From a virus: DNA of 64,000 nt. Of this stretch, positions 5,642 to 44,388 are shown piece by piece (position 1 is the first letter of the stretch; each line of letters starts with the position of its first letter). Location of the stretch: the IMG/VR virus record IMGVR_UViG_3300044653_000068, positions 1-64,000 of that record; one strand, given 5' to 3'. The position numbers and the translations under genes were made by a program. Under the pieces are notes generated by a model, which ran no database searches, was not told where the DNA came from, and worked only from the letters and a program-made list of their open reading frames with translations.

Positions 5642-6709
5642 GTGGACGTGCTGAACATCGCGCTCGCGATCAGCACGGCCCTCGGCTCCGCTGGTACCGT
5701 AGCGTATTACAGGGAAACGCACAGTGACGGCGTACGGGTTAAGCGCGCGGCGGAGACCAGGGCGATCGTGGATGCGGCGCTGGCTCCCGTCCTGGTCGAT
5801 CTTCAGGCTATTCGCGCCCAGTACGCCGCTGACAACTCGCAGACGCCGCTGGTCATAAAGACCGTGCTGTCCGAGGCGCTGGAGCCGATGCGAGATCAGA
5901 TCAGCACGCTTAACACCAAAATTGAGCCATTGTGGACGGCGTTGATCAACATGGGAATCAACCAGACCAACGTCCTGCACCAGCCTGACCCGCGCAGAAC
6001 CGAGATCGACGGGCTGCTGGAGGAACTTCAGGACGAGCTTGTGAACGGCCACCTGATGTCCCAGCCTGACTACACCCGGTTGCGCGAGTTCCTGAACAAG
6101 ATCAAGGTCTGGGAGCCGGGAACGGACATCGGCTTCCCCGTGCTGCCGGCCGAGCCCACCTCGGCGGCTATACTCCTGAGTGTGATGGGACTGTCCCGGC
6201 AGCGTCGCAGTCAGGAGCGGTTAGGCATGAGCGCGTCCACACCAGACCCCGGTGGACTACCCGAGCATGAGACTCGTGAGGTGAAAAGCGTGTCTGACGG
6301 AAATGGCGAGCGCGGCCCGCAGGGCGAGCGCGGCCCGAAGGGCGACAAGGGCGAGCCCGGTCCGTCCGTGCTTAACAAGCTCGCCGAGCAGCAGGTGTCC
6401 CGGCTCATCGCGGCGAAGACCATGCCGAGGTGGTGGGGCTACGCGCTGATCACGGGTCTCGTCGTGCTGACGGCGGTCGTGATCATCCTCGCCGCGTGGG
6501 TGCTGCCCGCGCTGAACAATAACACCATCAGCGACAGGTCGTACGTCAACAAAGTCGTACAGCACGAGTGCGCGGCCTTGAAGCAGGTCGCCGCCAGCCT
6601 CCCGTCATCACCGCCCTCCGACCCGGCGGCGAACCCGTCGCGCGTGACCAACTACCAGACCTACCTGGCGATCACGTCCTGGGCGCGCAGCGACGGATGC
6701 CCGGCGTGA
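5642..6709 (+). CDS. Membrane-anchored protein with collagen-like segment
   Basis: The 355-residue product begins at GTG with GGCAGGGG upstream. The first 22 residues are hydrophobic and could be a membrane anchor or signal. Residues 25-180 are helical and charged. Around 218-240 lies a short collagen-like run of Gly-x-y triplets (GERGPQGERGPKGDKGEPGP). A strong transmembrane helix follows near 266-290, then a short tail with two Cys. Collagen-like segments are typical of phage fibres and surface proteins, but a C-proximal membrane helix is unusual for a virion protein. Roles in superinfection control, lysis or surface display are all possible. The stop overlaps the convergent tail gene by 49 bp. 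Confidence 0.75.
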   Translation: MDVLNIALAISTALGSAGTVAYYRETHSDGVRVKRAAETRAIVDAALAPVLVDLQAIRAQYAADNSQTPLVIKTVLSEALEPMRDQISTLNTKIEPLWTALINMGINQTNVLHQPDPRRTEIDGLLEELQDELVNGHLMSQPDYTRLREFLNKIKVWEPGTDIGFPVLPAEPTSAAILLSVMGLSRQRRSQERLGMSASTPDPGGLPEHETREVKSVSDGNGERGPQGERGPKGDKGEPGPSVLNKLAEQQVSRLIAAKTMPRWWGYALITGLVVLTAVVIILAAWVLPALNNNTISDRSYVNKVVQHECAALKQVAASLPSSPPSDPAANPSRVTNYQTYLAITSWARSDGCPA

Positions 6710-8985
6710 GCTGAGCCTGCGGGTGGTCCGGCCTGATCAGCCGGCGTAAGCGGGGTCGGTCGTTGCCCCGGCCACCCCGGGAAATTAGTCCGGGTGCACC
6801 GTCTTATAAGACCTAATGCAAACTTGCCCGGATAGAGCGCGGCGACCACCGAGGCCATGTCCGTCATCACGTTCTGATAGGGCGTGACCTGCGCGGTCTG
6901 CGTGTCGTCGTCGTAGGCGTACTGGCCGATCATGAACGTCATGGGGGCCAGCCCCACCTCGCCGCCGTACGCCTCGTTCATGCCCTGCACGGTGACCATC
7001 GCGCCGCCCCAGTTGAGGCCCAGGTCCACCGGGAAACCGCCCGCGTTGAGCAGCTGGCCGGGCATCACCGAGAACGCGCTGGCGAAGTTGGCGCGGATGT
7101 ACTTGGACAGGATGTTCGAGCCGATCGCCTGCGCTGCGGCCTTGGTCATCGCCCCGGCGTTGGTGACGTCCAGGTAGTACTCCATGCGCCCGTGCGCCGC
7201 CACCGACCCCGGGGCGTCCGCGAACGTGGTGTTGTACGTGGCGGCGACGGCGGCCTTGGTGGAGGTGGCGGTCTTGTCCGGCGTCGCCTGGTAGTAGATG
7301 ATGACGGTGTTGACGTCCGCGACGATGGACCGGGCGACGGGCGAGGTGTTCACCAGGAACAGGTCCGGCGGGCGCCTTGCCCCGCTGATCGTCAGGTCAA
7401 CGCGCTTCCACTTGCCGCCCGACAGGATCTCGGTCTGCATCTTGGCCTGCGGGCCGGCCTGGAGCGGGTTGCCGGACACGTCGGTGGGCATCGCGTGGAC
7501 CTGCACCTCCCACGGGGACGGAGGCCAGCTTGACGCCCCGGCCGGCTGGGCAAGCTCCCAGATGAGGGAGCCGCCCGTGCACAGCAGGTTGAGGAAGTCG
7601 GTGACGGTCAGCGACCCCGGGTCCTGGACCGGGCCGGTGTAGATGCCGGCCGGGTTGCCGACGCCCCTGTTCACCCAGCGCAGGCCCCGGGAGATGGCCA
7701 GGTCGATCGGCGCGTCCGGCGTCCACCCGGCCCCCTTGAGCAGGTTCTGGTCCCACCACGCGCCGAAGTTCGTGCCGTAGGTGCCGACGCCGTTGCAGGT
7801 GAGGGTCCAGCCCGTCGCGGCCGGCTGCGGCTCCGTGAGCTGCCCCTCCCAGATGCACGAGCAGCCCCTGTGCGCGGTCACTACGCGGCCCGGGTTGAGG
7901 GCGTCCGTGCGGAACCACGGCTCGACCTCCAGCTGGCAGGTGAGCTGGTCGGGGCCGCCGGGGATCGAGTACGTGTAGTTGATCGCGGAGACGTGCCCGA
8001 TCTGGCCGAGGTAGCGCGGGTTGAACGGGCGCGGAATGGTGATGATGCCGTCCAGGCTCGGCGTCACCGTGTCCAGGGTCGATAGGTTCGGGTAGAAGTA
8101 GACGTACCAGGACTCCGTGCTCGCCTGCTGGACGCTGGCCACCGTGCACACGTTCGGGTTCAGCAGGGTCCACAACGGCGCGGAGCCGGCCGGCACGCCG
8201 TCCCGGTTCACGCTGCCGTTGGCGGTGCCCGCCGCCGTGAAGCACGCCAGGTTGGCCTCGATGCACGCGTTGGAGGCCTGGGCGTACGCGTTGGCGGCGG
8301 TCGCCGCCCCGGCGGCGGTGGCCTCGATGGCAGCCGCCGCCATCGTCCCTTCCGCTAGGCCGAACGCCATGGTAGCCGCGTTCCAGGCTCCCACGGCCGT
8401 GGTGGCGTAGGCGCTCTGGTTCGCGATGGCGGCCTTGGACGCCGCCGTGGCGGCGCTGGCCACCCCGCCGATCGCAGCCGCCTTGTACGGTCCCCAGGCC
8501 GCGCTCGGCCCGGCCAGGTAGTCGGCGTACGCCGTGGCCATGTCCGTGACGGCCGTGGCCATGGCCGCCGTGGCGGCGGTGACGTTGCCGGCGTAGGCGG
8601 ACGACGGGCGCCCGGCGCCGACCAGCGCCTGGATGGCGAACAGGTCCGGCGCCCCGCCCGAGGAGTTCGCGTTGGCGGCGCTCCACTTGACGGTGCCGTT
8701 GTCGAACGCCGGGGGGTTCACGAACGACCCCAGGGACGGCGCGCTCCCCGAGTGGTAGACCTGAAACTGCTCTCCCGGCTGGACGGGCGGCGTGTGGAAG
8801 CCCTCCTCGACCCCCCACTGGGCGGTGTTGAGGATGAAGTACCCGTACCGCTTGCCGTCCGTCGCCGTGCCGCCGGCGCCCATGTTGTCCGTGGTGGACC
8901 CCGCCGAGAGGATGGGGAACGCGCGCTGCGGCAGCGCCGGCTGCCACGTCACGATCTGGGTGGAGTGAAGCTTCTCAAGCGCCAT
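6661..8985 (-). CDS. Large tail/baseplate protein
   Basis: The start is set at the ATG at 8985 because AAGGAGG lies 8 nt upstream; an in-frame start 48 bp earlier would waste that site. The 774-residue product has an Ala-rich helical region (about 120-260). Beta-rich sequence follows with Trp/Tyr and Cys residues, ending in a region (about 590-720) resembling the virus-tail hub proteins that follow distal tail proteins in siphophages. It is the last gene of the tail operon, ends opposite the collagen-like gene and starts 14 bp after the GH16 tail protein. Tail placement is certain from context; the exact subunit is not. Confidence 0.7.
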   Translation of the reverse strand: MALEKLHSTQIVTWQPALPQRAFPILSAGSTTDNMGAGGTATDGKRYGYFILNTAQWGVEEGFHTPPVQPGEQFQVYHSGSAPSLGSFVNPPAFDNGTVKWSAANANSSGGAPDLFAIQALVGAGRPSSAYAGNVTAATAAMATAVTDMATAYADYLAGPSAAWGPYKAAAIGGVASAATAASKAAIANQSAYATTAVGAWNAATMAFGLAEGTMAAAAIEATAAGAATAANAYAQASNACIEANLACFTAAGTANGSVNRDGVPAGSAPLWTLLNPNVCTVASVQQASTESWYVYFYPNLSTLDTVTPSLDGIITIPRPFNPRYLGQIGHVSAINYTYSIPGGPDQLTCQLEVEPWFRTDALNPGRVVTAHRGCSCIWEGQLTEPQPAATGWTLTCNGVGTYGTNFGAWWDQNLLKGAGWTPDAPIDLAISRGLRWVNRGVGNPAGIYTGPVQDPGSLTVTDFLNLLCTGGSLIWELAQPAGASSWPPSPWEVQVHAMPTDVSGNPLQAGPQAKMQTEILSGGKWKRVDLTISGARRPPDLFLVNTSPVARSIVADVNTVIIYYQATPDKTATSTKAAVAATYNTTFADAPGSVAAHGRMEYYLDVTNAGAMTKAAAQAIGSNILSKYIRANFASAFSVMPGQLLNAGGFPVDLGLNWGGAMVTVQGMNEAYGGEVGLAPMTFMIGQYAYDDDTQTAQVTPYQNVMTDMASVVAALYPGKFALGLIRRCTRTNFPGWPGQRPTPLTPADQAGPPAGSAHAGHPSLRAQDVIAR

Positions 8986-26074: not shown

Positions 26075-26224
26075 CTACTTACTCCTCGGGATCTTGTGCT
26101 GGCACGGGCAGTCGGGCGACTCGCACTGAAGGTGACCGCGCATAATGCCCTCCAGGTTCCCCTTGCGGGCGGCAATGACCAGGAGAGCGTCGCTGGCCGC
26201 CCTCCGGCAGGGCTTGCAGATCAC
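26075..26224 (-). CDS. Small Cys-rich protein
   Basis: The 49-residue product starts at a GTG overlapping the stop of the glycosyltransferase gene as GTGA. It has CKPC (residues 3-6) and CESPDCPC (33-40), enough for one zinc site, and basic residues between. Overlap coupling and Cys spacing support a real gene; function unknown. Confidence 0.55.
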   Translation of the reverse strand: MICKPCRRAASDALLVIAARKGNLEGIMRGHLQCESPDCPCQHKIPRSK

Positions 26225-27297
26225 ATGATCCCCTCCTTCTCCATCAGCTTCATGATCTCGGCCGCGCGGTTGTCGAATGTCCAGTCCGCAATCGCCGCCC
26301 GCGCCTTGTCGGCCATCTCCTCGCGGGCGCTGTCGTGCTTCAGCCACCAGCGCAGCGATTCCTCGGCCTCCTGCGGCGAGTGGAACTTAGGCAGGATGCC
26401 GTCGAACATCAAGTCTGACTCCGGGCGCGGGTCGCGGAGGAAGAACAGGCCGCAGGCGGCCATCTCGATCTCGCGCGGCCCCATCGCGTAACCCTCGCCC
26501 TTGTGCGCGTCCTCGCTCTCACGGCGGTAGAAGTTGATGCCGGCCTTCGTCATCCGGTAGACGCGGGCGGTCTCGGTGTTGTCCACGCACTCGTCCGGCT
26601 GGTGGCCGAGGTACTTGAGGAGGCCGAGGAACTCCGGCTCGATGGAGTCCCAGCCATTGCCGCCGAGCACGGTGTCGATGCCGTCGAAGTTCATCGCGCT
26701 GAAGAACTCAAGCCGGCTGCGGAACGCGGTGCCCACGAAGCTGAAGTCCACGCTGTAGTCCCGTCGCTCCGGCGGGAAGTGGATGCCCGGGTCGTAGGAG
26801 TGCGGGACGTAGGCGGCCGGGATGCCCATGCCCTTCCAGCTCTCGATGTTCGTCGGGTCGTTGAGCAGGTTGAGGTTCGCGAACTGGCCGCGCATCTTCT
26901 GCTCGTCGTCCTGGTAGGGGGACTCGGTGTGCAGCATCACGATCTTCATGTTGCGCGCCCGGATCGTGGCGAGGGCCTGGCCGGTCTGGTAGAACGCCGA
27001 GACGAAGAACACCACGTCCGGCCAGAACTCGAAGCAGGTCTCCATCAGCCCCTTGGTTGCCATCTGGGCCATCATCGCCGGGTCCGGCATGGCGAGGTGC
27101 ACGTCCGGCCGGCCGCAGTGCTCGCAGGGGGAGCTGTCCGCCGTCTCCAGCAGCGCCCGCGCGTAGAACGTCAGGCGCTCGTTCGTGTTGTAGACCATGA
27201 TCTGGTGGCCCTGCTTGCGCAGCGCCTTGACCCAGCCACGGAAAACATCCGAAACCGAAAAATCCGGCCCCGGCTGCACTACGAGAATACGAGCCAC
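26221..27297 (-). CDS. Glycosyltransferase, CgeB-like (GT-B fold)
   Basis: The 358-residue product starts MARILVVQPGPDFSVSDVFRGW, a Rossmann-like GT-B N terminus. The C-terminal half has ARVYRMTKAGINFYR, then GPREIEMAACGLFFLRDPRPE and a closing helix, as in CgeB-type spore/glycan glycosyltransferases. The donor is probably a nucleotide-sugar bound by the C-terminal domain. It lies between tail-completion and tail tube genes, so a virion protein is a likely acceptor. It is separate from the sugar cassette at 36-42 kb. Confidence 0.75.
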   Translation of the reverse strand: MARILVVQPGPDFSVSDVFRGWVKALRKQGHQIMVYNTNERLTFYARALLETADSSPCEHCGRPDVHLAMPDPAMMAQMATKGLMETCFEFWPDVVFFVSAFYQTGQALATIRARNMKIVMLHTESPYQDDEQKMRGQFANLNLLNDPTNIESWKGMGIPAAYVPHSYDPGIHFPPERRDYSVDFSFVGTAFRSRLEFFSAMNFDGIDTVLGGNGWDSIEPEFLGLLKYLGHQPDECVDNTETARVYRMTKAGINFYRRESEDAHKGEGYAMGPREIEMAACGLFFLRDPRPESDLMFDGILPKFHSPQEAEESLRWWLKHDSAREEMADKARAAIADWTFDNRAAEIMKLMEKEGIM

Positions 27298-27463: not shown

Positions 27464-27928
27464 CTACCTCGCTGACACGTCGAACTGGAAGGTCGCGCCG
27501 AAGTACTCCACGCCGGCCCACGATATCGGGCCGTAGTCGGTGATCATAGTGGCGATGCACCACTCGACCGTGCCGCCGAGCGAGATGTCCATGTCGATCG
27601 CCATGGCGACGGGCACGACGGAGGCCGTGCTCTGGTAGCCGCACCACTGGTCGAGCGTGTCCTGGACGTTGCTGATGGTGTCGCCCCGCGAGACCGGCAG
27701 GATGCCCCGGAGGGTGAACTCGGTGGGGGTGAGCGGCCGGCCAGAGCCGTCGAGAAGCCCTGCGCCCATGGTCACGTCGAACTTAGCCACCGGCCGGGTC
27801 GGCAGCACCAGGAACATCGGCAGGGCTTGCAGCGAGTCCAGGAGCTGCGCCGAGGCCGCCAGCGACGGGACCGCGTTCGCCGCTATCTGCGCCGCTATCG
27901 ACGCCCGGATCGCGGTCACGTCCGCCAC
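27464..27928 (-). CDS. Tail terminator/completion protein
   Basis: The 154-residue product starts with a helix (MADVTAIRASIAAQIAANAV) and continues with beta segments ending in FQFDVSAR, the pattern of siphophage tail-terminator proteins that cap the tail tube and join it to the head. Position between connector and tail tube genes agrees. The GTG start has GAGG 6 nt upstream. Its first 146 nt overlap the K+ channel gene in another frame. Confidence 0.65.
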   Translation of the reverse strand: MADVTAIRASIAAQIAANAVPSLAASAQLLDSLQALPMFLVLPTRPVAKFDVTMGAGLLDGSGRPLTPTEFTLRGILPVSRGDTISNVQDTLDQWCGYQSTASVVPVAMAIDMDISLGGTVEWCIATMITDYGPISWAGVEYFGATFQFDVSAR

Positions 27929-28235
27929 TGTGCACCTCGCTTATGTGTCGTTTCAGTTCATTATGCCTGCGATCCACGTGCGCGGTGGTGAGTCCCGTGG
28001 CGATCAGGGCGAACACGGAGCTGAAAAGCGGTATCACCAGCAGCATCATGGCAACGGCGAGAAGGTGCGGGGCCCAGCCGTGCGGGGTGATGTCCCCGTA
28101 TCCCACGGTCGTGCCCGTGGTGGTGGCGAAGTAGAGGCCGTCCGGGACGCTGACGTGCTGCGCGAACGAGAACGTCACCCCGAGCAGCGCGTCCAGGGCT
28201 ACGCAGAGGACGGCGACGAAGACTGCGCGGCGCAC
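27783..28235 (-). CDS. Predicted minimal K+ channel
   Basis: The 150-residue product has one membrane helix (about 4-24) and a pore helix ending in TTTGTTVGYGDITP, with selectivity filter TVGYGD at 43-48. A second helix (57-82) and a basic, helical C-terminal part follow. This is the two-helix core of tetrameric K+ channels, as in KcsA and algal virus Kcv. It should sit in the host membrane and pass K+. The last 49 residues overlap the tail-terminator gene in another frame, so the original stop may have been lost. A GTG start has GGGAG about 10 nt upstream. It follows another membrane protein gene by overlap. Confidence 0.8.
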   Translation of the reverse strand: MRRAVFVAVLCVALDALLGVTFSFAQHVSVPDGLYFATTTGTTVGYGDITPHGWAPHLLAVAMMLLVIPLFSSVFALIATGLTTAHVDRRHNELKRHISEVHSGGRDRDPGVDSGADSGERGPVAGGLGAAPGLAASPADVPGAADPAGG

Positions 28236-28582
28236 TTCGCGTGCTCCCTGAGAATGTGAGCGTGAGTGAGCTTCCTCGGGTGCGGGCTGTGCTTGCGGCA
28301 GACCTTAAACTGCCCGTCAGCCAGCGGGTACCGGCCGATGCGCCAGCAGCCGGTCACATGGCAGTTCATCGACCGCAGGTGCGAGCCCAGCGCCCCGAAG
28401 ATGGACACGATCGCCAGCGCGGGGATGAACCCCGACCAGAGCTGGTAGGTCCAGGGGGTGCTCGATGAGGACGGGTACGGGTGAACGCCCACGCCGTACA
28501 GCACGCCCCAGGGATGCCAGCCCACGGCGTAAACGGCCAGTCCCAGGACCGCCAGAAGCGCGGCGGCTCTCAGCTTTCCCAT
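28199..28582 (-). CDS. Membrane protein with C-terminal Cys/His domain
   Basis: The 127-residue product has two hydrophobic segments (about 5-22 and 48-68), then CHVTGCWRIGRYPLADGQFKVCRKHSPH, a compact Cys/His domain that could bind zinc on the cytoplasmic side. It is coupled to the channel gene by a 37-nt overlap. A holin-like or channel-partner role is possible; no firm family. Confidence 0.65.
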   Translation of the reverse strand: MGKLRAAALLAVLGLAVYAVGWHPWGVLYGVGVHPYPSSSSTPWTYQLWSGFIPALAIVSIFGALGSHLRSMNCHVTGCWRIGRYPLADGQFKVCRKHSPHPRKLTHAHILREHAKCAAQSSSPSSA

Positions 28583-29607
28583 GTCAGCTCCCAGGCTTCC
28601 TCAACGGGGTACTTCAGCTTCATTATCGAGCCCCACGATACGATCCGCCCATCGGGCCGCGACAGGGCGGCGTGATCCCCGAACGCGGTCTCGTACCCGA
28701 CCACGAGGGGCAGGTGCGTGAACGCGAAAGGATCGACGGCCTGCGTGTAATGGGCCAGCCTCACGTTCCGGTCCCTCGGCCACGCGGCCATCCACGTGCG
28801 CCACAGCGCCTCCTCGATGGTGGGCTCCGGCCCGATCATCTCCGCCAGCTCATCGATGTCCCGGTCACTCGCCTTGACGCCCCGCGCGCACAGCAGGTGG
28901 TTGGCGATGGCGAACACGACGCAGCGCGCCTCAGTCTCGTTGCCCAGCCACTGCCCCGGCCTGCGCACCCCGATGAAGCTCCCTCGCCTGGCCGCCGTCC
29001 GGACCTTGGCCGCCGCCGCGAGCCCGGCCGTGTTCCCGGCCTTCGCTATGGCCGCCGACTGCGCCCTCGATATCTGGGTCTTCTTCCCGGTGTTCAGGGT
29101 GGACTTGGAGGCCTTCTTGGCGGTCTTGTTGATCGCGGCAAAGACGCCGCTCTCATGCGAGTTCGCCTGCGCCACGTCAACGGTCCGCATGACGGCCAGG
29201 TGCGCGTACGCCCTCTCGCCCGCCTGCACGTACTGGAGCCGCCCGGCGATGTTGGCGTGGGTGTACATCTGGTTCTCGATCCGGGCCTGGAGCGCGGCGT
29301 TCTGGTGCCCCAGCCGGGACTGCACCCAGCTCATCCGGGCGGCGTGCGCGGCGATGGCGGCGGCCTGGGCGGCTCCCCGCGACGCGGCGGCGGTCTTCAT
29401 GCTCGCGTACGCCGAGGCCAGGCGGTAGGCCCGGAACCGGTTGGAGGCGGCCTGGAAGGCGATCTTCGTCCGCGCGGCGGAGGCGGCGGCGTTGTACGCG
29501 GCGTTGTACGCCTTCCACTGCGCGGTGGACAGCACCAGCCCCTTCGGCGTCGCCTTCGCCTTGGTCGTGACCTTGAAGACGGTCGGGGCCGGCGCCTTGG
29601 CGGCCAT
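28570..29607 (-). CDS. Ala-rich helical protein with papain-like C-terminal domain
   Basis: The 345-residue product has an Ala/Lys-rich helical first half (about 25-200), resembling minor head or internal proteins. The second half holds EARCVVFAIANHLL (about 227-240) and GDHAALSRPDGRIVSWGS (about 310-327), matching the Cys and His regions of a papain-like peptidase. It might be a head-located peptidase used in maturation, or a non-catalytic relative. It lies between a short connector-module gene and the membrane genes. Confidence 0.6.
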   Translation of the reverse strand: MAAKAPAPTVFKVTTKAKATPKGLVLSTAQWKAYNAAYNAAASAARTKIAFQAASNRFRAYRLASAYASMKTAAASRGAAQAAAIAAHAARMSWVQSRLGHQNAALQARIENQMYTHANIAGRLQYVQAGERAYAHLAVMRTVDVAQANSHESGVFAAINKTAKKASKSTLNTGKKTQISRAQSAAIAKAGNTAGLAAAAKVRTAARRGSFIGVRRPGQWLGNETEARCVVFAIANHLLCARGVKASDRDIDELAEMIGPEPTIEEALWRTWMAAWPRDRNVRLAHYTQAVDPFAFTHLPLVVGYETAFGDHAALSRPDGRIVSWGSIMKLKYPVEEAWELTWES

Positions 29608-29820: not shown

Positions 29821-30858
29821 TCAGACTCCCCACTTGCGACGTGCGTTTATGTAAGGACGTAGCAATTCCACGACCCACGGGTTGCTCTGCACCCTCACCA
29901 TACCGCTGGCGGCGGTGCCGGCCATGCCCCACGGGGTGTCCTTGGACAAGTAGATGTCCTGGCAGAGCATCAGGGACGCCTGCGACACCTCGGGCGGCAC
30001 GTAGTCCCAGCCCCATGTGGTGGTGACCTGCATCCGGTTGAGGTGGCTGTACGGCCACACGAAGGGCAGCCACGCTCCGTTGGTGGCGATGGCCCCGGGG
30101 ATCATGAGCGCCTGGAGCTGCCGGTAGGGCCGCGCCACGCCGCCCGCCGCGTTCGGGTTGTAGTTGTCCTCGCTGTTGCTCGGGTCGCCCAGCTTGAGGG
30201 CGTAGAACGAGCCGGTGCCGACCGGCGGCGCGGGGTTGCCCCAGGCGGTCTCGAAAATGCCGTCGCCGTCGTAGTCCAGGTTCACGATCGTGCTGGCCGC
30301 CGTGCTGGGCACGATGTCGTCGATGCCCTCTTCCCAGATGGTCTGCGGCACGTAGGTCCGGGTTTCCTGGAGCCGGTAGAAGTGACGTCCGCAGTACCTG
30401 TTGATCCAGTTGGCCACGGTATGGATGGCGAGCTGCATCTCGTAGTCGTTGGAGTGGTAGGTCTTGCCGGCCGGGGACTCCCCGAGGCGCGACTTCAGCT
30501 CCTCCAGGCCCGTGTACCAGTACTGCATGCCGTAGCCGACGTCGGACAGGGGCATCAGCCGGAAGGTGCCCGGGGTGACCTGCTGGACGTTGCCGCCAGC
30601 GCCGACCCAGCAGTAGGTGTACAGCCCCGGGACGCTGATCCCGTCGAGCGTCAGGGTGTAGTTGCCCGTCGAGGACCGCAGGATGCTGTTGAGCCCGCCG
30701 CCGCCCGGGTACGTGAAATTGGTGATCGCCCCGGTCGGGTCGGTGACCACGCAGGTGATCGTGGTCGGGTCGGCGGCGACGCCGGACAGGTTGAGGAACG
30801 AAACCGAGGTGAGCGCCACGGCCTCGCTGGGGCTGTCGTAAAGGACCTGTGAACTCAT
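29821..30858 (-). CDS. Head-tail adaptor with N-terminal Ig-like domain
   Basis: The 345-residue product has a beta-rich first 105 residues like an Ig-type domain. An adaptor-like helical part follows (LEELKSRLGESP, then AIHTVANWINRYCGRHFY), the signature of gp6-type connectors that bind below the portal. The C-terminal part has VWPYSHLNRMQVTTTWGW. The N-terminal extension may be exposed on the neck. It overlaps the preceding gene by 4 nt. Confidence 0.7.
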   Translation of the reverse strand: MSSQVLYDSPSEAVALTSVSFLNLSGVAADPTTITCVVTDPTGAITNFTYPGGGGLNSILRSSTGNYTLTLDGISVPGLYTYCWVGAGGNVQQVTPGTFRLMPLSDVGYGMQYWYTGLEELKSRLGESPAGKTYHSNDYEMQLAIHTVANWINRYCGRHFYRLQETRTYVPQTIWEEGIDDIVPSTAASTIVNLDYDGDGIFETAWGNPAPPVGTGSFYALKLGDPSNSEDNYNPNAAGGVARPYRQLQALMIPGAIATNGAWLPFVWPYSHLNRMQVTTTWGWDYVPPEVSQASLMLCQDIYLSKDTPWGMAGTAASGMVRVQSNPWVVELLRPYINARRKWGV

Positions 30859-33302
30859 AGCGTGATCCAGGTGATCTGACCGTAGGCGCAGGTGTTCTGC
30901 AATCCAGAAAAAACAACGTCGATTCGATAAAAAAGATACGTCTCCGGGTACAAGTCGGCGCGCGGGACCAGCACCGAGCAGAGGCCGCCGGAGGGGTTGG
31001 TGATGGTGATCGCGGGGCTGCCGCCGGCCGAGGAGAGCAGGAGCGCCGAGCCGTCAGGGGTTCCGGCGGCCGTCTTCAGGTACATGTTTATCGTCGCGCT
31101 GGTCAGGGACAGCGGGCTGCCATTCTGGGTGATGGCGACGCTGATCGTCTCGTCGTTGTTCTCGGCGAGCGTCAGGGGCACGTTCTGCATCGTCCATCCA
31201 ACCAGGGAGCCGTCGATGGTTACTGAGTTCACAGTACCGCCGTAGGTGCTGGCCGTGGTAGTGAGCGAGCCGTTTATAGAGGTCACAGTCAGCGTCGCGT
31301 CTGCGTAATCGGGCACCGTGACGCCCGCGCCGTAGGTGCTGGCCGTGGTGGTGAAAGTGGCGTCATAGTCAGCCGGCGTGGCCGTGTCGCCGTAGTTCGC
31401 GTAGATGAAGGCGGCGCCCAGGTTCTCCGGCGACCGGACGGGCACGCCCACAGTCGGCGCGAGGGCGGCGCCGGAGCCCGTGGCAAGACCGGTGACTATG
31501 CCCGGTGACGGCACGAGCGCCGCGCCGGCTCCCGTGGCGAGCCCTATGGGGAACCCCGTGGTGAGGGAAGGCGCGAGCGCGGCCCCGGTACCGGTGGCGA
31601 GACCCGCGTTGGCCGCCTGGGAGATGCCGCCCGCCGCCCCGGTACCGGTGGCCAGGCCTGCGGTGAAGCCGGAAGTCGCCAGCGGCGCGAGCGCGGCCCC
31701 GGTACCGGTGGCGAGGCCGAGAACCCGGGGAGCCGTGGGCGCGAGGGCGGAGCCCGTCCCCGTGGTGAGCCCGGCAGTGAAGCCGACTCCCGGCGGAAGG
31801 GCGGCCCCGGTGCCCGTGGCGAGGCCGGCGTTGGCCGCCTGGGAGATGCCGCCCGCCGCACCCGTGCCCGTGGCGAGCCCGGCGTTGGCCGCCTGGGAGA
31901 TGCCGCCCGCCGCGCCCGTGCCCGTGGCCAGGCCGGCGGTGAGGCCGACTCCCGGCTGAGGCGCCGCGCCCGTGCCCGTGGCCAGCCCCGCGCTGAGGCC
32001 GGCGGACAACTGGATGTCGAAGCCGAACGCGAAGCTGTAGTTGTTGTTGGGGTACGCCATCGACGTGGTGGTGGCGGTGTTGGCGTACCCGTTGTTGCCC
32101 GTGGAGGTCGTGGCCGTGGCGATGCCGACCGTGCCGGGGTAGTACTCCACCGCCTGGTAGGCGAACCAGGCGCTGGTACTGCTGCTGAACATCGTCGCGA
32201 CGTACGTGGTGCCCGTGGAGAGCGAGACGGGCGACGAGAACGCGGCGTAGGCCCAGCCCGCGCCTGCGGTCGCGGCGGACCCCCCGGGCGCGGTCAGCCA
32301 GGACGGGCTTGAGTTGCTCGCGACGAGCGTGCCGGTGGTGACGCTGGTGTAGGTGTACAGCCCGATTTCACTCGGGAACAGGGTGTTGCCGAACGGGCTG
32401 TACTGCCACAGGCCGAGAAGCTGGGTGGCCGTGGATACGGTGAAGGAGAACCCGGTGGTGCCGGCGCTGCTGGCGGCGGCGTACGCCCCCCCGGTCCCGA
32501 CAGGGTTGCCGCCGTTGAAGAAATTCCCGCCGGCCATGACGGGCGGCTGGGGCGGGGGAGGCGATCCGAACTTTCTGAACGACAGCGGGGACTGGCGCCC
32601 GGGAGGGGATGCCGGGGGGATGACGGGCGCCGGGACGGCCACCCCGCCGCCCGCGAGCTGGAACGCGACGAGGAGGACCGCGTAGTTGTCGCCGGTGCCG
32701 GTGAAGGTGAGCCCGTCAGTCTCCGTGCCGCCGGTGCTGGACTTGTACTGGACGATGTTGTTGCCCTGGCTGCCGGAGTTGACCGAGTTCGGGTCGAGGG
32801 TCCAGCCGGAAGCCTGCGTGTAGGTGTTACCGTCGCCGCTGTCCGCGAGGAACGTGATCAGGTACTCGCCGGCGAGTGATGAGGCATACGTCGGCGACAA
32901 GACCGGCGAGGTGGTCCCGGCCGTGCTGCCGAACGTACCGTCGAGGCACGCTGCGGCGGTGCTGCCCGTCGCGAGCCCCGAAACCTCCTGGACGACGATT
33001 GAGGGGCTGTTGGCGCCGCTGTACGTCGCGGTGATCGTCGGCTTGGTGCCGGCGTCGCCGGACGGGGTGTCGAGGACGTAAACGTAGCCGAACTGGCTGC
33101 CGCCGTTGAATGAGACAGTCGTCGCCACCAGGGCGAACGAGTTCCCGGCGGTGTCTTTCACGCTGGAGACCGTCACGCCGCCGCTGGACAGCACGTAGGC
33201 GATCAGCTTGCTGCCGGCGGTCAGGTTCGCCGTGGTGAAAGTCGCGGCGACCGACGTGCTGCCGGTTGAGCTGTTGGCGCTCTGAAGCCAGTTCCACGCC
33301 AT
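30855..33302 (-). CDS. Large modular neck/tail-associated protein with GLATGTGAA repeats
   Basis: The 815-residue product starts with a jelly-roll-like module (about 1-220) carrying the D-T-A-G-N-x-F signature also seen in the giant tail protein. A DUF4082-like domain follows (about 285-440). Then comes a low-complexity array of about a dozen GLATGTGAA-type repeats with short linkers (about 445-630), and a C-terminal BppU/Ig-like domain (about 710-815). Such proteins are fibres or baseplate parts. Its position among connector genes suggests a neck or whisker fibre. Neighbouring genes overlap it by a few bases. Confidence 0.65.
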   Translation of the reverse strand: MAWNWLQSANSSTGSTSVAATFTTANLTAGSKLIAYVLSSGGVTVSSVKDTAGNSFALVATTVSFNGGSQFGYVYVLDTPSGDAGTKPTITATYSGANSPSIVVQEVSGLATGSTAAACLDGTFGSTAGTTSPVLSPTYASSLAGEYLITFLADSGDGNTYTQASGWTLDPNSVNSGSQGNNIVQYKSSTGGTETDGLTFTGTGDNYAVLLVAFQLAGGGVAVPAPVIPPASPPGRQSPLSFRKFGSPPPPQPPVMAGGNFFNGGNPVGTGGAYAAASSAGTTGFSFTVSTATQLLGLWQYSPFGNTLFPSEIGLYTYTSVTTGTLVASNSSPSWLTAPGGSAATAGAGWAYAAFSSPVSLSTGTTYVATMFSSSTSAWFAYQAVEYYPGTVGIATATTSTGNNGYANTATTTSMAYPNNNYSFAFGFDIQLSAGLSAGLATGTGAAPQPGVGLTAGLATGTGAAGGISQAANAGLATGTGAAGGISQAANAGLATGTGAALPPGVGFTAGLTTGTGSALAPTAPRVLGLATGTGAALAPLATSGFTAGLATGTGAAGGISQAANAGLATGTGAALAPSLTTGFPIGLATGAGAALVPSPGIVTGLATGSGAALAPTVGVPVRSPENLGAAFIYANYGDTATPADYDATFTTTASTYGAGVTVPDYADATLTVTSINGSLTTTASTYGGTVNSVTIDGSLVGWTMQNVPLTLAENNDETISVAITQNGSPLSLTSATINMYLKTAAGTPDGSALLLSSAGGSPAITITNPSGGLCSVLVPRADLYPETYLFYRIDVVFSGLQNTCAYGQITWITL
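31440..32000. repeat. Degenerate tandem repeats coding for GLATGTGAA
   Basis: About a dozen imperfect units with a core of roughly 27 bp, ACCGGTACCGGGGCC-like on the coding strand, separated by 15-45 bp. Two units in a row, GGISQAANAGLATGTGAA, are almost identical, which suggests recent expansion. Confidence 0.8.
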
Positions 33303-37875: not shown

Positions 37876-38051
37876 GAGACCAGGCCTTCCCTGCGCACCT
37901 CGGCCGCGACGAAGGCCGCGCAGGCGTCAGTGCCCCGCCAGCAGTCGAGGTCCCCGGTCTGGTTCCGCTCGCAGTACTCGCGCATGGCGCGGGCTATCAC
38001 CGCTGTCAAATCAGACCCCGCCACCAATAGGATCTTGTCGTCGAGGCTCAC
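37872..38051 (-). CDS. Small protein (59 residues) after the aminotransferase
   Basis: The GTG at 38051 overlaps the DegT stop as GTGA. The product VSLDDKILLVAGSDL... has a helix with AVIARAMREYCERNQ and two Cys. Overlap coupling at both ends and sensible composition support it. Function unknown. Confidence 0.6.
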   Translation of the reverse strand: MSLDDKILLVAGSDLTAVIARAMREYCERNQTGDLDCWRGTDACAAFVAAEVRREGLVS

Positions 38052-39160
38052 GCTCGGAAGCTCCTGACTGCGGCGATGACCTGCTCCTGCTCGGGCTGGG
38101 TCATGGACGGGAACAGCGGGAGGGTGACGAGGGTCTGCCAGACGCGCTCGGTGACCGGGGTCTCGTTCGGCCAGCCGGTGTCGGGAAACAGGCTCTTGTA
38201 GTGGTTGAGCGGCTTGTAGTGAACGCCGGCCGAGACCCCGTTCGCGATCATGTGCCTGATGAAGTCCGGCCTGCGGTCGGCGGGAACGCGGACGACGTAC
38301 ATATGGGTGGCGCTGTTCCCGTCCACCTTGGGGGTCTTGAGCCAGGGCAGGCCGGACAGGTCGCAGTTGTAGATGGCCGCCTGGGCGCGACGCATGCTGT
38401 TGCGCTCGTCGAGCTTCCGGAGCTGCACCCGGCCGAGGGCGGCGGCGATGTCGTTCATGTGGGCCTTGAAGCCGTCGCCGGGGATGTCGTAGTCCCAGCC
38501 GTAGCCCACCCGCGAGTCCTTGTCCCGGTCCCAGGTGGACTTGTCGATCCCGCACCAGCGAAGTCGGCGGACCTCGGCGGCCACGTCCTCGTCGTCGGTG
38601 GTGACCATGCCGCCGTCCCCCGTGGCCAGGTTCTTGACCGCGTGGAACGACCAGGCTCGCGCATCACCGCGCCGACCGGTGAACTTCGAGCCGGCCGCGT
38701 GCGCGCAGTCCTCGATGATCGTGAACGCGTCGTGGATCGGCTTCGGGATGGAGACGCCTGTGCCCGCGCCCCCGTACCAGACCGGGACGATCCCCCAGTT
38801 GCCGTCCGGGAACTCGCACATCTTCTCGTAGGCATCTGTGAAGTCGATGCACAGATCAGTCTCGATGATGTCCGCGAAGACCACCTGGTTGCCCGCGTGC
38901 TGCATGGCCTGCGCCGAGGAGATGAAGGTGAGCGCCGGAACGACGACGATACCGCCCGTGAGCCCGGTTGCGCGGGCGGCCAGCTCCAGGGCGGCGGTGG
39001 CGCTGCTGACGGCGACGGCGAACCTGGAGCCCGTGTAGGCGGCGAACTCGGCCTCGAACTTCTCCGTCTCCGGTCCCTGCCCCCACCAGCCGGAGCGCAG
39101 GACGCGGGTGACCGCCTCAATCTCCTCGTCGCCGCAAACAGGGCGAAACAGGGGAATCAT
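38048..39160 (-). CDS. DegT/DnrJ/EryC1-type sugar aminotransferase
   Basis: The 370-residue product has the fold-I PLP signature of this family. SSATAALELAARA (about 52-64) is the phosphate-binding region, EDCAHAAGSKF (150-160) has the Asp that contacts the pyridine nitrogen, and FHAVKNLATGDGGMV (172-186) has Lys176 for the aldimine. These enzymes make amino sugars on nucleotide carriers. It is flanked by a methyltransferase and small genes in the cassette. The start codon overlaps the upstream methyltransferase stop. Confidence 0.88.
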   Translation of the reverse strand: MIPLFRPVCGDEEIEAVTRVLRSGWWGQGPETEKFEAEFAAYTGSRFAVAVSSATAALELAARATGLTGGIVVVPALTFISSAQAMQHAGNQVVFADIIETDLCIDFTDAYEKMCEFPDGNWGIVPVWYGGAGTGVSIPKPIHDAFTIIEDCAHAAGSKFTGRRGDARAWSFHAVKNLATGDGGMVTTDDEDVAAEVRRLRWCGIDKSTWDRDKDSRVGYGWDYDIPGDGFKAHMNDIAAALGRVQLRKLDERNSMRRAQAAIYNCDLSGLPWLKTPKVDGNSATHMYVVRVPADRRPDFIRHMIANGVSAGVHYKPLNHYKSLFPDTGWPNETPVTERVWQTLVTLPLFPSMTQPEQEQVIAAVRSFRA

Positions 39161-41441: not shown

Positions 41442-42488
41442 TCAGACTAGTCCGTCTTTATAGGCCCATCCCACGGGGAACAGCATCTTGTAGGCGTCGG
41501 CCCATTCCCGCCAGTGGCCCTCGATCGTGTTCCTCCGGGCCTTCTCCTTCGCGGCCGCGCCCATCTTCAGCCGCAGGGCCTCGTCGCCGGCCAGCTCGGA
41601 CAGGAAGCTGAGCCACTCGTGCTCCCGCTTCACCAGGAAGCCGTCCACGCCGTGGTCGATGAAGCGCCGGTAGGGCTCCACGTCGCTGGCGACGACGGGC
41701 GTCCCGCGCGCCATGTACTCCAGGGCCTTGATCCAGGACTTGGACCTGCTGAACTGGGTGTCGAGCAGCGGGCAGATGCCGATGTCGAAGTCGATGGCCC
41801 GGTAGAAGACGTCGGGGTAGTCGCTGACGTGAATCCACGGGATGTGGAACGAGCGGCCCGGCGGGCAGCCGAACTTGTCCCTGTAGTCAACGCCGGACAC
41901 GAACAGGTCCCACTGCGGGAAGCGCTTCATGAACCGGCGGACCGCGCCCGTCGCCATCGTGACGTCGCGGGCGTGCGAAGCGCCGCCCTGCCAGCCGATC
42001 CGGGGCCTGTCCCGCCGGTCGTCGTGCCCGAGGCCCAGGACGAACTCGGGGACGTAGTTGGGCAGCACCACGACGGGCACCCGGCCCCCGGTCAGCTCGC
42101 GCGTCCAGTCGCCGAGGTGCGGCGAGGACGTGGTGACCAGGTTCGCGGTGGTGCAGTAGCGCAGCACGGCCTCGCGGGTCTCGCCGCCCTCGGCGTAGCT
42201 CTTGTACGCCGCCGCGTTCTCCGGGGTGATATTCCAGATATCGTCATCGTTTTCGTAGACGGTTCGGCACGTCGGCGTGGCCCAGCGCCGCCAGACCCCC
42301 AGCCCCTCGAACGCGTTGGACCGCTGCGACACGATCACGTCGGCCTCGGCTGCGTCGGTCAGCAGGAGCTGCTCGTGCTGTTCCTGCATCAGCTTCGGGC
42401 CGCCGGACCGGAAGGTGACCTTCACATCACCGGAGTGCTCGTTGACCGCCGTGAGGGGGACGAGCATGCGATACCAAGTAAAGCGCAC
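41442..42488 (-). CDS. Glycosyltransferase family 4-like (GT-B fold)
   Basis: The 348-residue product has a GT-B layout: an N-terminal region with YENDDDIWNI, then RPRIGWQGGASHARDV (about 162-177) at the start of the second domain, and the donor-binding helix region ALEYMARGTPVVASDVEPYRRFI (about 258-280). This type is common in actinophages and is often thought to glycosylate virion proteins. It is the first gene of the sugar cassette; the HNH/AP2 endonuclease gene begins about 90 bp upstream on the other strand. Confidence 0.88.
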   Translation of the reverse strand: MRFTWYRMLVPLTAVNEHSGDVKVTFRSGGPKLMQEQHEQLLLTDAAEADVIVSQRSNAFEGLGVWRRWATPTCRTVYENDDDIWNITPENAAAYKSYAEGGETREAVLRYCTTANLVTTSSPHLGDWTRELTGGRVPVVVLPNYVPEFVLGLGHDDRRDRPRIGWQGGASHARDVTMATGAVRRFMKRFPQWDLFVSGVDYRDKFGCPPGRSFHIPWIHVSDYPDVFYRAIDFDIGICPLLDTQFSRSKSWIKALEYMARGTPVVASDVEPYRRFIDHGVDGFLVKREHEWLSFLSELAGDEALRLKMGAAAKEKARRNTIEGHWREWADAYKMLFPVGWAYKDGLV

Positions 42489-43124: not shown

Positions 43125-43583
43125 CTACCCCGGGGCGGGCAGGGCCAGCGACACGGCTAGGACGGCGCCGAAGATCAGCAGGAAGATGCCGAGCGTGCCG
43201 CCCAGCTCCGTCCAGAAGCCGTGCTTCGCGCACGCCTGGGCCCGCATCACCCCGACGACGATCCCGATCAGCAGGCAGACGACGCCCATCAGCGCCAGGG
43301 CGGGCGCGCCGCGCGCGAACAGGAACGGGACCGCCGGGGCGATGCCCCCGGCCGCCGTGGCGAGGCCCATGACGGCCGAGGGCCACAGGCCGTTGTCAGA
43401 GTCGCTCAGGTACTCGTTCCCGGCCATGGACAGCGCGGCGGAGATCGCGCCGGACAGGGCGGCCGGGAAGATGAGGCGCTCGTCCCCGAGGAGGTAGAGC
43501 ACCACGCCCACGATCGACATGCAGCCGTCGCCCAGTCCGAAGATGGCCGGCCGGAACAGGGGCGCGGTGCTTTTCCCCGTCAC
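43125..43583 (-). CDS. VIT1/CCC1-like membrane transporter, short form
   Basis: The 152-residue product has four to five membrane helices. Motifs typical of VIT/CCC1 metal transporters are present: LGDGCMSIVGVVLYLLG (residues 17-33) and ALSMAGNEYLSDSD (50-63), where the family has DG and SMxxGEYxS. The C-terminal helices (GGIAPAVPFLFA; LLIGIVVGVM; GTLGIFLLIFGAVLAVS) also match. The family moves Fe2+ or Mn2+ out of the cytoplasm. The usual length is 220 or more residues; the cytoplasmic metal-binding loop is missing here. It overlaps no neighbour and follows the cysteine peptidase gene. Confidence 0.65.
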   Translation of the reverse strand: MTGKSTAPLFRPAIFGLGDGCMSIVGVVLYLLGDERLIFPAALSGAISAALSMAGNEYLSDSDNGLWPSAVMGLATAAGGIAPAVPFLFARGAPALALMGVVCLLIGIVVGVMRAQACAKHGFWTELGGTLGIFLLIFGAVLAVSLALPAPG

Positions 43584-43587
43584 ACGG

Positions 43588-44337
43588 CTACTTCGCGAGC
43601 AGGCTCAGGTCGCCCTGGAGGGCCGCCAGGTTGACGCCGTGGCCGTCGAGCCCGGACGCCGGGACCTCGCCCCAGATGCACGCCCAGGCCTCGGTGGACA
43701 TGAGGTGCCAGGCGCTGTACTGGATCGCCTGGATTCCGCCCCAGGTGACGATGTACAGGTTGTCGCTGTCGTAGCCGACGATCGGCACGCAGTGGCCGCC
43801 CTCGACGTTCCCGTTCTGGAAGGTCGCCGCCGTCCACGGCTCGCCGTCCTGGAACGCCTCCATCATCAGGTCGGTGACCCGGATGCCGGTGTAGGCGTAG
43901 CCGTAGGCGTCAACCGCGAACTGGAGGGTCGCCATGTCGCGGATCGAGACCGGCGCGTAGGCGGCCAGGGTGCGGCCGAACCAGCCGGTCTTCTTCACGT
44001 AGGCGAGGAAGTCCGCGAGCACGACGCCGTTGTCCTCGCCGCCCGTGTAGGCCAGGTAGTACTGGACGATCTCGTCGTCTGTGACAGCGGCCAGCGCGGT
44101 GTGCGACTCCAGGTCCACGGTCATCTCGCCGTGATTGACGCCCGCGACGCCGCAGTCGCCGTACTGGTCGTTGCCGTCCATGCCCCAGGCGGTGCCATCG
44201 GAGGCCTCCGGCGGGACGGGGGGCGTGACGCTCAGGGGAGCGGCGGGCAGCGCGCCGGCCACGTACCAGGTCAGGTCGCGGAGACCGTTCGGGACGTGGC
44301 CGGGAAGACAGCCCAGCTTGAGGTTCGAGTGCGTCAT
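43588..44337 (-). CDS. Papain-like (C1/C39-type) cysteine peptidase
   Basis: The ATG at 44337 has GAGG 8 nt upstream. The 249-residue product has QYGDCGVAG (C62, preceded by the Gln that forms the oxyanion hole) and GGHCVPIVGYD (H182), followed by NLYIVTWGG with a Trp after the third catalytic residue. No signal peptide. It may cut host or virion proteins. It sits between capsid-associated genes and the VIT-like gene. Family fit is strong; the target is not known. Confidence 0.75.
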   Translation of the reverse strand: MTHSNLKLGCLPGHVPNGLRDLTWYVAGALPAAPLSVTPPVPPEASDGTAWGMDGNDQYGDCGVAGVNHGEMTVDLESHTALAAVTDDEIVQYYLAYTGGEDNGVVLADFLAYVKKTGWFGRTLAAYAPVSIRDMATLQFAVDAYGYAYTGIRVTDLMMEAFQDGEPWTAATFQNGNVEGGHCVPIVGYDSDNLYIVTWGGIQAIQYSAWHLMSTEAWACIWGEVPASGLDGHGVNLAALQGDLSLLAK

Positions 44338-44388
44338 TGTCCGCCTCTTCACTTGTGATCCGATGTCACGGAACAGGCTAGCCCGCGA

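Follow-up and report, generated by a model that had tools for sequence, protein, structure and literature searches.

A predicted K+ channel gene and its overlapping membrane-protein partner among the structural genes of a tailed phage

The window analyzed here is a 64,000-base stretch of DNA from a soil phage, positions 1 to 64,000 of the 115,256-base IMG/VR record IMGVR_UViG_3300044653_000068. Its minus strand carries an open reading frame (ORF) for a potassium (K+) channel that overlaps the gene for a small membrane protein, termed the partner, on its upstream side and the tail terminator gene on its downstream side. A preliminary description of this DNA had located the channel ORF correctly. 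The genes and features of the locus are as follows.

28199-28582, minus strand: partner gene, encoding a membrane protein of 127 amino acids (aa) with two predicted helices followed by a Cys/His motif
27783-28235, minus strand: K+ channel ORF, GTG start at 28235 and stop at 27783, 150 aa
27923-28235, minus strand: K+ channel core of about 104 aa, with the first transmembrane helix (TM1), the pore helix with the TTVGYGD filter, the second transmembrane helix (TM2) and a C-terminal helix
27783-27928, minus strand: run-on tail that extends the channel ORF into the 5' end of the terminator gene, in a different frame
27928-27464, minus strand: tail terminator (phrog_17840, E value 4.5e-9), downstream of the channel

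The 150-aa product contains the selectivity filter stretch ATTTGTTVGYGD and matches Pfam Ion_trans_2 (PF07885) with an E value of 1.9e-12 and 47.3 bits, well above the family cut-off of 22.5 bits, so that the ORF is no chance reading frame. The codon-position GC content of the core (0.67/0.44/0.85) is usual for coding sequence, and this channel is the only PF07885 match in the complete record. The profile phrog_14690 also matches the channel (E value 2.5e-12); its name, cAMP-dependent Kef-type, was not upheld, as the Pfam scan returned neither a cyclic-nucleotide domain nor an RCK domain. A profile of the group of related channels defined below picks up KcsA and other solved K+ channels with E values down to 4e-18. 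AlphaFold modeled the core with a mean predicted local distance difference test score (pLDDT) of 92, placing TM1 at residues 2-26, the pore helix at 30-41 and TM2, which continues into a long C-terminal helix, at 54-103. The top Foldseek matches of the model are KcsA and MthK, both with a probability of 1.00. The complete K+ filter, pore helix and two membrane helices of the preliminary description are borne out by Pfam, the model and the fold search, and the gene product is nearly certainly a K+ channel of the KcsA/MthK type with two transmembrane helices and one pore (2TM/1P). The long C-terminal helix of the model is compatible with tetramer assembly, and the protein would conduct K+ as a tetramer.

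Relatives were collected with sequence profiles. The initial scan returned L001 only, the partner used as bait added L003 and L004, and a profile of three channel sequences detected 74 viral loci and more than 400 bacterial loci, of which 80 were retained. The viral group consists of 25 distinct metagenomic contigs after removal of near-copies and one truncated contig (L029), and with L081, a locus from a metagenome-assembled Frankiaceae genome, the aligned set has 26 members. Another 123 loci with related channels (44 viral and 79 genomic) served as the comparison set outside the group.

The gene immediately upstream of the channel encodes a partner homologue of ~125 aa in L081 and in 22 of the 25 viral contigs, among them L022, where this gene is frameshifted. 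In 22 of these 23 loci the partner and channel genes overlap, in most of them by exactly four bases, and this arrangement suggests that the two are translationally coupled. An apparent partner-channel fusion at 5695-5995 of L022 was dismissed as the product of this frameshift, the remaining Cys/His motif being in another frame. Within the fetched flanks, the partner stands beside none of the related channels outside the group (0/44 viral, 0/79 genomic). The conserved motif of the partner is zinc-knuckle-like (NCHxxxCxRxGR...VCxxH), and this Cys/His pattern suggests a structural zinc site. Neither Pfam nor PHROGs holds a family for the partner, with only scattered weak single matches, and the family is apparently nameless in both. 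The partner was modeled with a pLDDT of 83; a fold search against solved structures gave nothing significant, and searches among cultured phages gave nothing convincing. Its linkage to the channel gene indicates that the partner is probably a regulator or accessory subunit of the channel.

The pair is often accompanied by a gene for a VIT1-like small membrane protein, which in the window lies 15 kb from the channel.

43125-43583, minus strand: VIT1-like small membrane protein, 152 aa (E value 8e-24 with the hidden Markov model of its family)

In eight contigs (L018, L023, L024, L027, L028, L030, L031 and L032) the VIT1-like gene is directly upstream of the pair. The window gene scores 36.5 bits against PF01988 (cut-off 28.1 bits) through two stretches in one frame that align to positions 1-57 and 138-194 of the 214-position profile; its homologues in other phages fall mostly below the cut-off. 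The coupled Cys/His partner and the VIT1-like gene are the most informative features of the locus, and both were missed by the preliminary description.

The TVGYGD filter is intact in all 26 aligned members and reads TTVGYGD in the window, while the channels of the group are 35-63% identical to the window channel. The ratio of nonsynonymous to synonymous substitution rates (dN/dS) is about 0.25-0.40 in the closest usable pairs (0.156/0.638 for L024/L030, 0.299/1.042 for the window and L005); the most divergent pairs approach saturation. The preliminary description had proposed that loss of the gene or broken filters throughout the close relatives would mark a decaying passenger. Because 26 of 26 keep the filter and dN/dS is in this range, the channel gene is under purifying selection and is not a decaying passenger. 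In a channel tree built from 88 columns, with many forks unresolved, 19 of the 25 viral contigs and L081 form one well-supported set (100/99), and a second phage cluster (L024, L027-L032) stands apart. Both clusters sit among mostly Actinomycetota sequences, apart from the firmicute-type channels, and an actinobacterial source and host are therefore likely for the group. The partner-channel pair of L081 (7600-8390) is on a Frankiaceae metagenome-assembled chromosome and is nested in the phage clade, a placement that suggests exchange of the pair between phage and host.

The channel ORF and the terminator gene share 146 bases in different frames, which agrees with the 49-codon overlap of the preliminary description. 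Its further proposal that the channel had probably lost its original stop finds no support in this form. The conserved portion of the channel protein stops near residue 104, and the final ~45 residues are run-on. The codon-position GC content of the overlap is non-coding-like in the channel frame (0.90/0.73/0.51) and has a coding pattern in the terminator frame (0.75/0.52/0.92). The identical run-on into the terminator is found in L003, L005 and L011. In L077-L079, which have no channel, it is the partner gene that continues into the terminator, in the same frame and through the shared junction sequence LKxHVEEVRNGR. The same run-on with a different upstream gene shows that the overlap belongs to the junction, at which the channel was gained or lost, and that the overlap does not prove the loss of a stop. 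The alternative frame is also no more open than codon shuffling of the terminator predicts (P 0.35-0.91). Fourfold sites are better conserved inside the overlap (0.303 versus 0.534), and its base composition deviates, with 71% G. A conserved functional domain in the overlap tail was considered and not established, given the composition shift, a frame openness equal to that of the shuffles and a signal that includes tails belonging to the partner. The extra synonymous-site conservation does not serve as evidence that selection acts on the channel tail. Used by itself as the query, the terminator protein gave no match, and a two-sequence terminator alignment gave five loci.

Portal, terminase, capsid, protease and tail genes confirm a tailed phage, probably an actinobacteriophage-type siphovirus in which the channel would be expressed with a late structural operon. 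The head-tail adaptor, tail terminator and tail genes agree with the siphophage structural operon of the preliminary description. Upstream of the pair lie two further genes.

28570-29607, minus strand: 345-aa protein, upstream of the partner and overlapping its start; conserved in syntenic relatives
29821-30858, minus strand: head-tail adaptor (phrog_442, E value 1.3e-15), on the far side of the insertion site

The 345-aa protein is 52% identical to its L003 orthologue. The tail terminator follows the pair immediately in the window, L003, L005, L009, L010, L011, L021 and L025, and after about half a kilobase in L007, L012 and L023; the head-tail adaptor is on the opposite side of the pair in the members tested for it (the window, L018 and L021). 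The pair is near the terminase in L001 and L022, and the channel is upstream of the portal in L014. In L008 the channel stop (6333) overlaps the start of a GH25 endolysin gene (6330) by four bases, in L028 an endolysin gene is 0.7 kb downstream of the channel, and L032 has an overlapping endolysin-like gene with a weak match. A gene downstream of the channel in L031 was taken by eye for a lysin, and no family supports that assignment.

Other genes of the structural regions were recorded. In L007 a release factor-like gene with an RF-1 domain (GGQ; phrog_3122, E value 1e-39) occupies 6318-6719 on the minus strand between the channel and the tail terminator. The minus strand of the window carries glycosyltransferase-like and aminotransferase-like genes at 26221-27297, 38048-39160 and 41442-42488, which suggest that sugars are attached to the virion or to the surface of the host. 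The 815-aa protein encoded at 30855-33302 (minus strand) has repeated GLATGTGAA units and is probably a low-complexity fiber or adhesin-like virion part. The ends of the proteins encoded at 28570-29607 and 43588-44352 (minus strand) resemble papain-type cysteine peptidase domains by eye, the first without a convincing Pfam match.

The channel and its partner have the appearance of a two-part device that is being maintained, not of a stray gene. Its late action on the host membrane is favored because of its position among structural genes, the coupling to a membrane partner and the occasional coupling to a lysin. We tentatively propose, at somewhat less than even confidence, that the KcsA-type channel and its coupled partner form a regulated late K+ conductance acting around lysis. 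TM1, the pore helix with the TTVGYGD filter, TM2 and the cytoplasmic C-terminal helix would assemble, presumably as a tetramer, into a K+-selective pore. The channel would be translated in a coupled manner with the two-helix Cys/His membrane protein from the late structural operon, so that late in infection the pair would place a K+ conductance regulated by the partner in the host membrane. This conductance would clamp the membrane potential toward the K+ equilibrium and shift K+ and turgor, and its likely use would be lysis preparation or timing. A more doubtful version, which we consider unlikely, casts the partner as a new family of zinc-binding membrane subunits that gates the KcsA-type pore, often together with a VIT1-like metal transporter, for pre-lysis K+ release or membrane-potential setting; such a two- or three-part device has not been described before.

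Several observations weigh against a role at lysis. No endolysin gene adjoins the channel in the window, and the adjacency to a lysis gene is firm in only 2 of the 25 contigs (L008 and L028). A K+-selective pore alone would hyperpolarize or clamp the membrane and not fully depolarize it, so that the channel is no obvious holin; the selective filter also argues against a nonspecific membrane hole. Neither gene is indispensable, because L077-L079 have the partner without the channel and L014-L016, one branch in the tree, have the channel without the partner. On inspection, the genes around the pair in L081 appear to be chromosomal (phosphoglycerate dehydrogenase-like, FAD-oxidase-like and pirin-like), with no phage genes seen beside it, and a pair on a chromosome argues for a function beyond lysis.

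Lysis preparation or timing is ranked first, and superinfection exclusion and ion homeostasis are its rivals. In exclusion, the channel would shift the potential of the infected cell or lysogen and block DNA ejection by a second phage, as proposed for the chlorovirus channel Kcv. A different K+ channel gene stands beside the repressor and integrase of the Lactobacillus phage PLE2, but firmicute-phage-type channels are a separate branch of the tree, no lysogeny genes were seen near the window channel, and a gene among late structural genes would act late; exclusion is improbable here. We give the same low credence to the proposal that the channel, partner and VIT1-like protein tune the K+ and metal-ion content of the cytoplasm to suit DNA packaging or to keep the osmotic balance of a host living in soil. 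The co-occurrence of the VIT1-like gene, the pair on an actinobacterial chromosome and the report of soil viruses with potassium channels (PMC8269230) speak for ion homeostasis, whereas a passive channel is unable to concentrate K+ past the limit set by the membrane potential, the VIT1-like proteins are short and mostly under the family cut-off, and several records with the pair yielded no VIT1-like gene. A selfish or neutral moron that moves among phages and hosts and plays no part in the infection cycle would account for the differing positions of the pair (before the terminator, close to the terminase, ahead of a lysin) and for the presence or absence of the channel at one junction (the window and L003 versus L077-L079). 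It is the least probable of the alternatives in view of purifying selection, the invariant filter and a two-gene coupling kept across contigs despite the divergence of their channels.

The group places a K+ channel among structural genes and couples it to a conserved membrane protein of no classified family, an arrangement seen in many independent assemblies of phages, with the coupled pair also present on one bacterial chromosome. K+ channels have been listed for Mycobacterium, Vibrio, Acinetobacter, Pseudomonas, Streptomyces and Lactobacillus phages (PMC6163359), and genes related to the window channel occur in 30 phage records; the novelty that the preliminary description implied for a phage K+ channel is thus not sustained. 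Any suggestion about the function of these channels was termed speculative (PMC6163359), and no paper was found that gives a phage K+ channel a tested role. The coupled-partner setting was not found described in the literature. A partner-gated K+ conductance, if true, would connect K+ flux with lysis or exclusion by phages.

The window channel shares the fold, the filter, the pore-domain size and the cytoplasmic C-terminal helix with KcsA and MthK, and its best fold matches put the identity to KcsA at about 27-31%. Unlike these channels it has no RCK domain, is encoded in a phage structural operon and is coupled to a Cys/His partner. The phage channels of phrog_14690 and PMC6163359 (Myrna/Phabba, BillNye, Vibrio phages, ME3 and PLE) are also 2TM/1P proteins, except for the four transmembrane helices of PLE, with a G(Y/F)GD filter and about 26-37% identity to the window channel over most aligned stretches. 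The Phabba and BillNye channels are among metabolic, tRNA or hypothetical genes and the PLE2 channel is in a lysogeny region. The third gene shares an N-terminal motif and membrane-protein character with VIT1/CCC1 (PF01988), but the phage proteins have about 140-150 aa against the 214 positions of the profile. Kcv is likewise a virus-encoded miniature K+ channel, but of an algal virus, and resides in a membrane inside the virion (PMC7019647), of a kind not expected for a siphophage. Kcv nevertheless provides the precedent for a viral K+ channel that alters turgor, DNA ejection and exclusion (PMC7019647).
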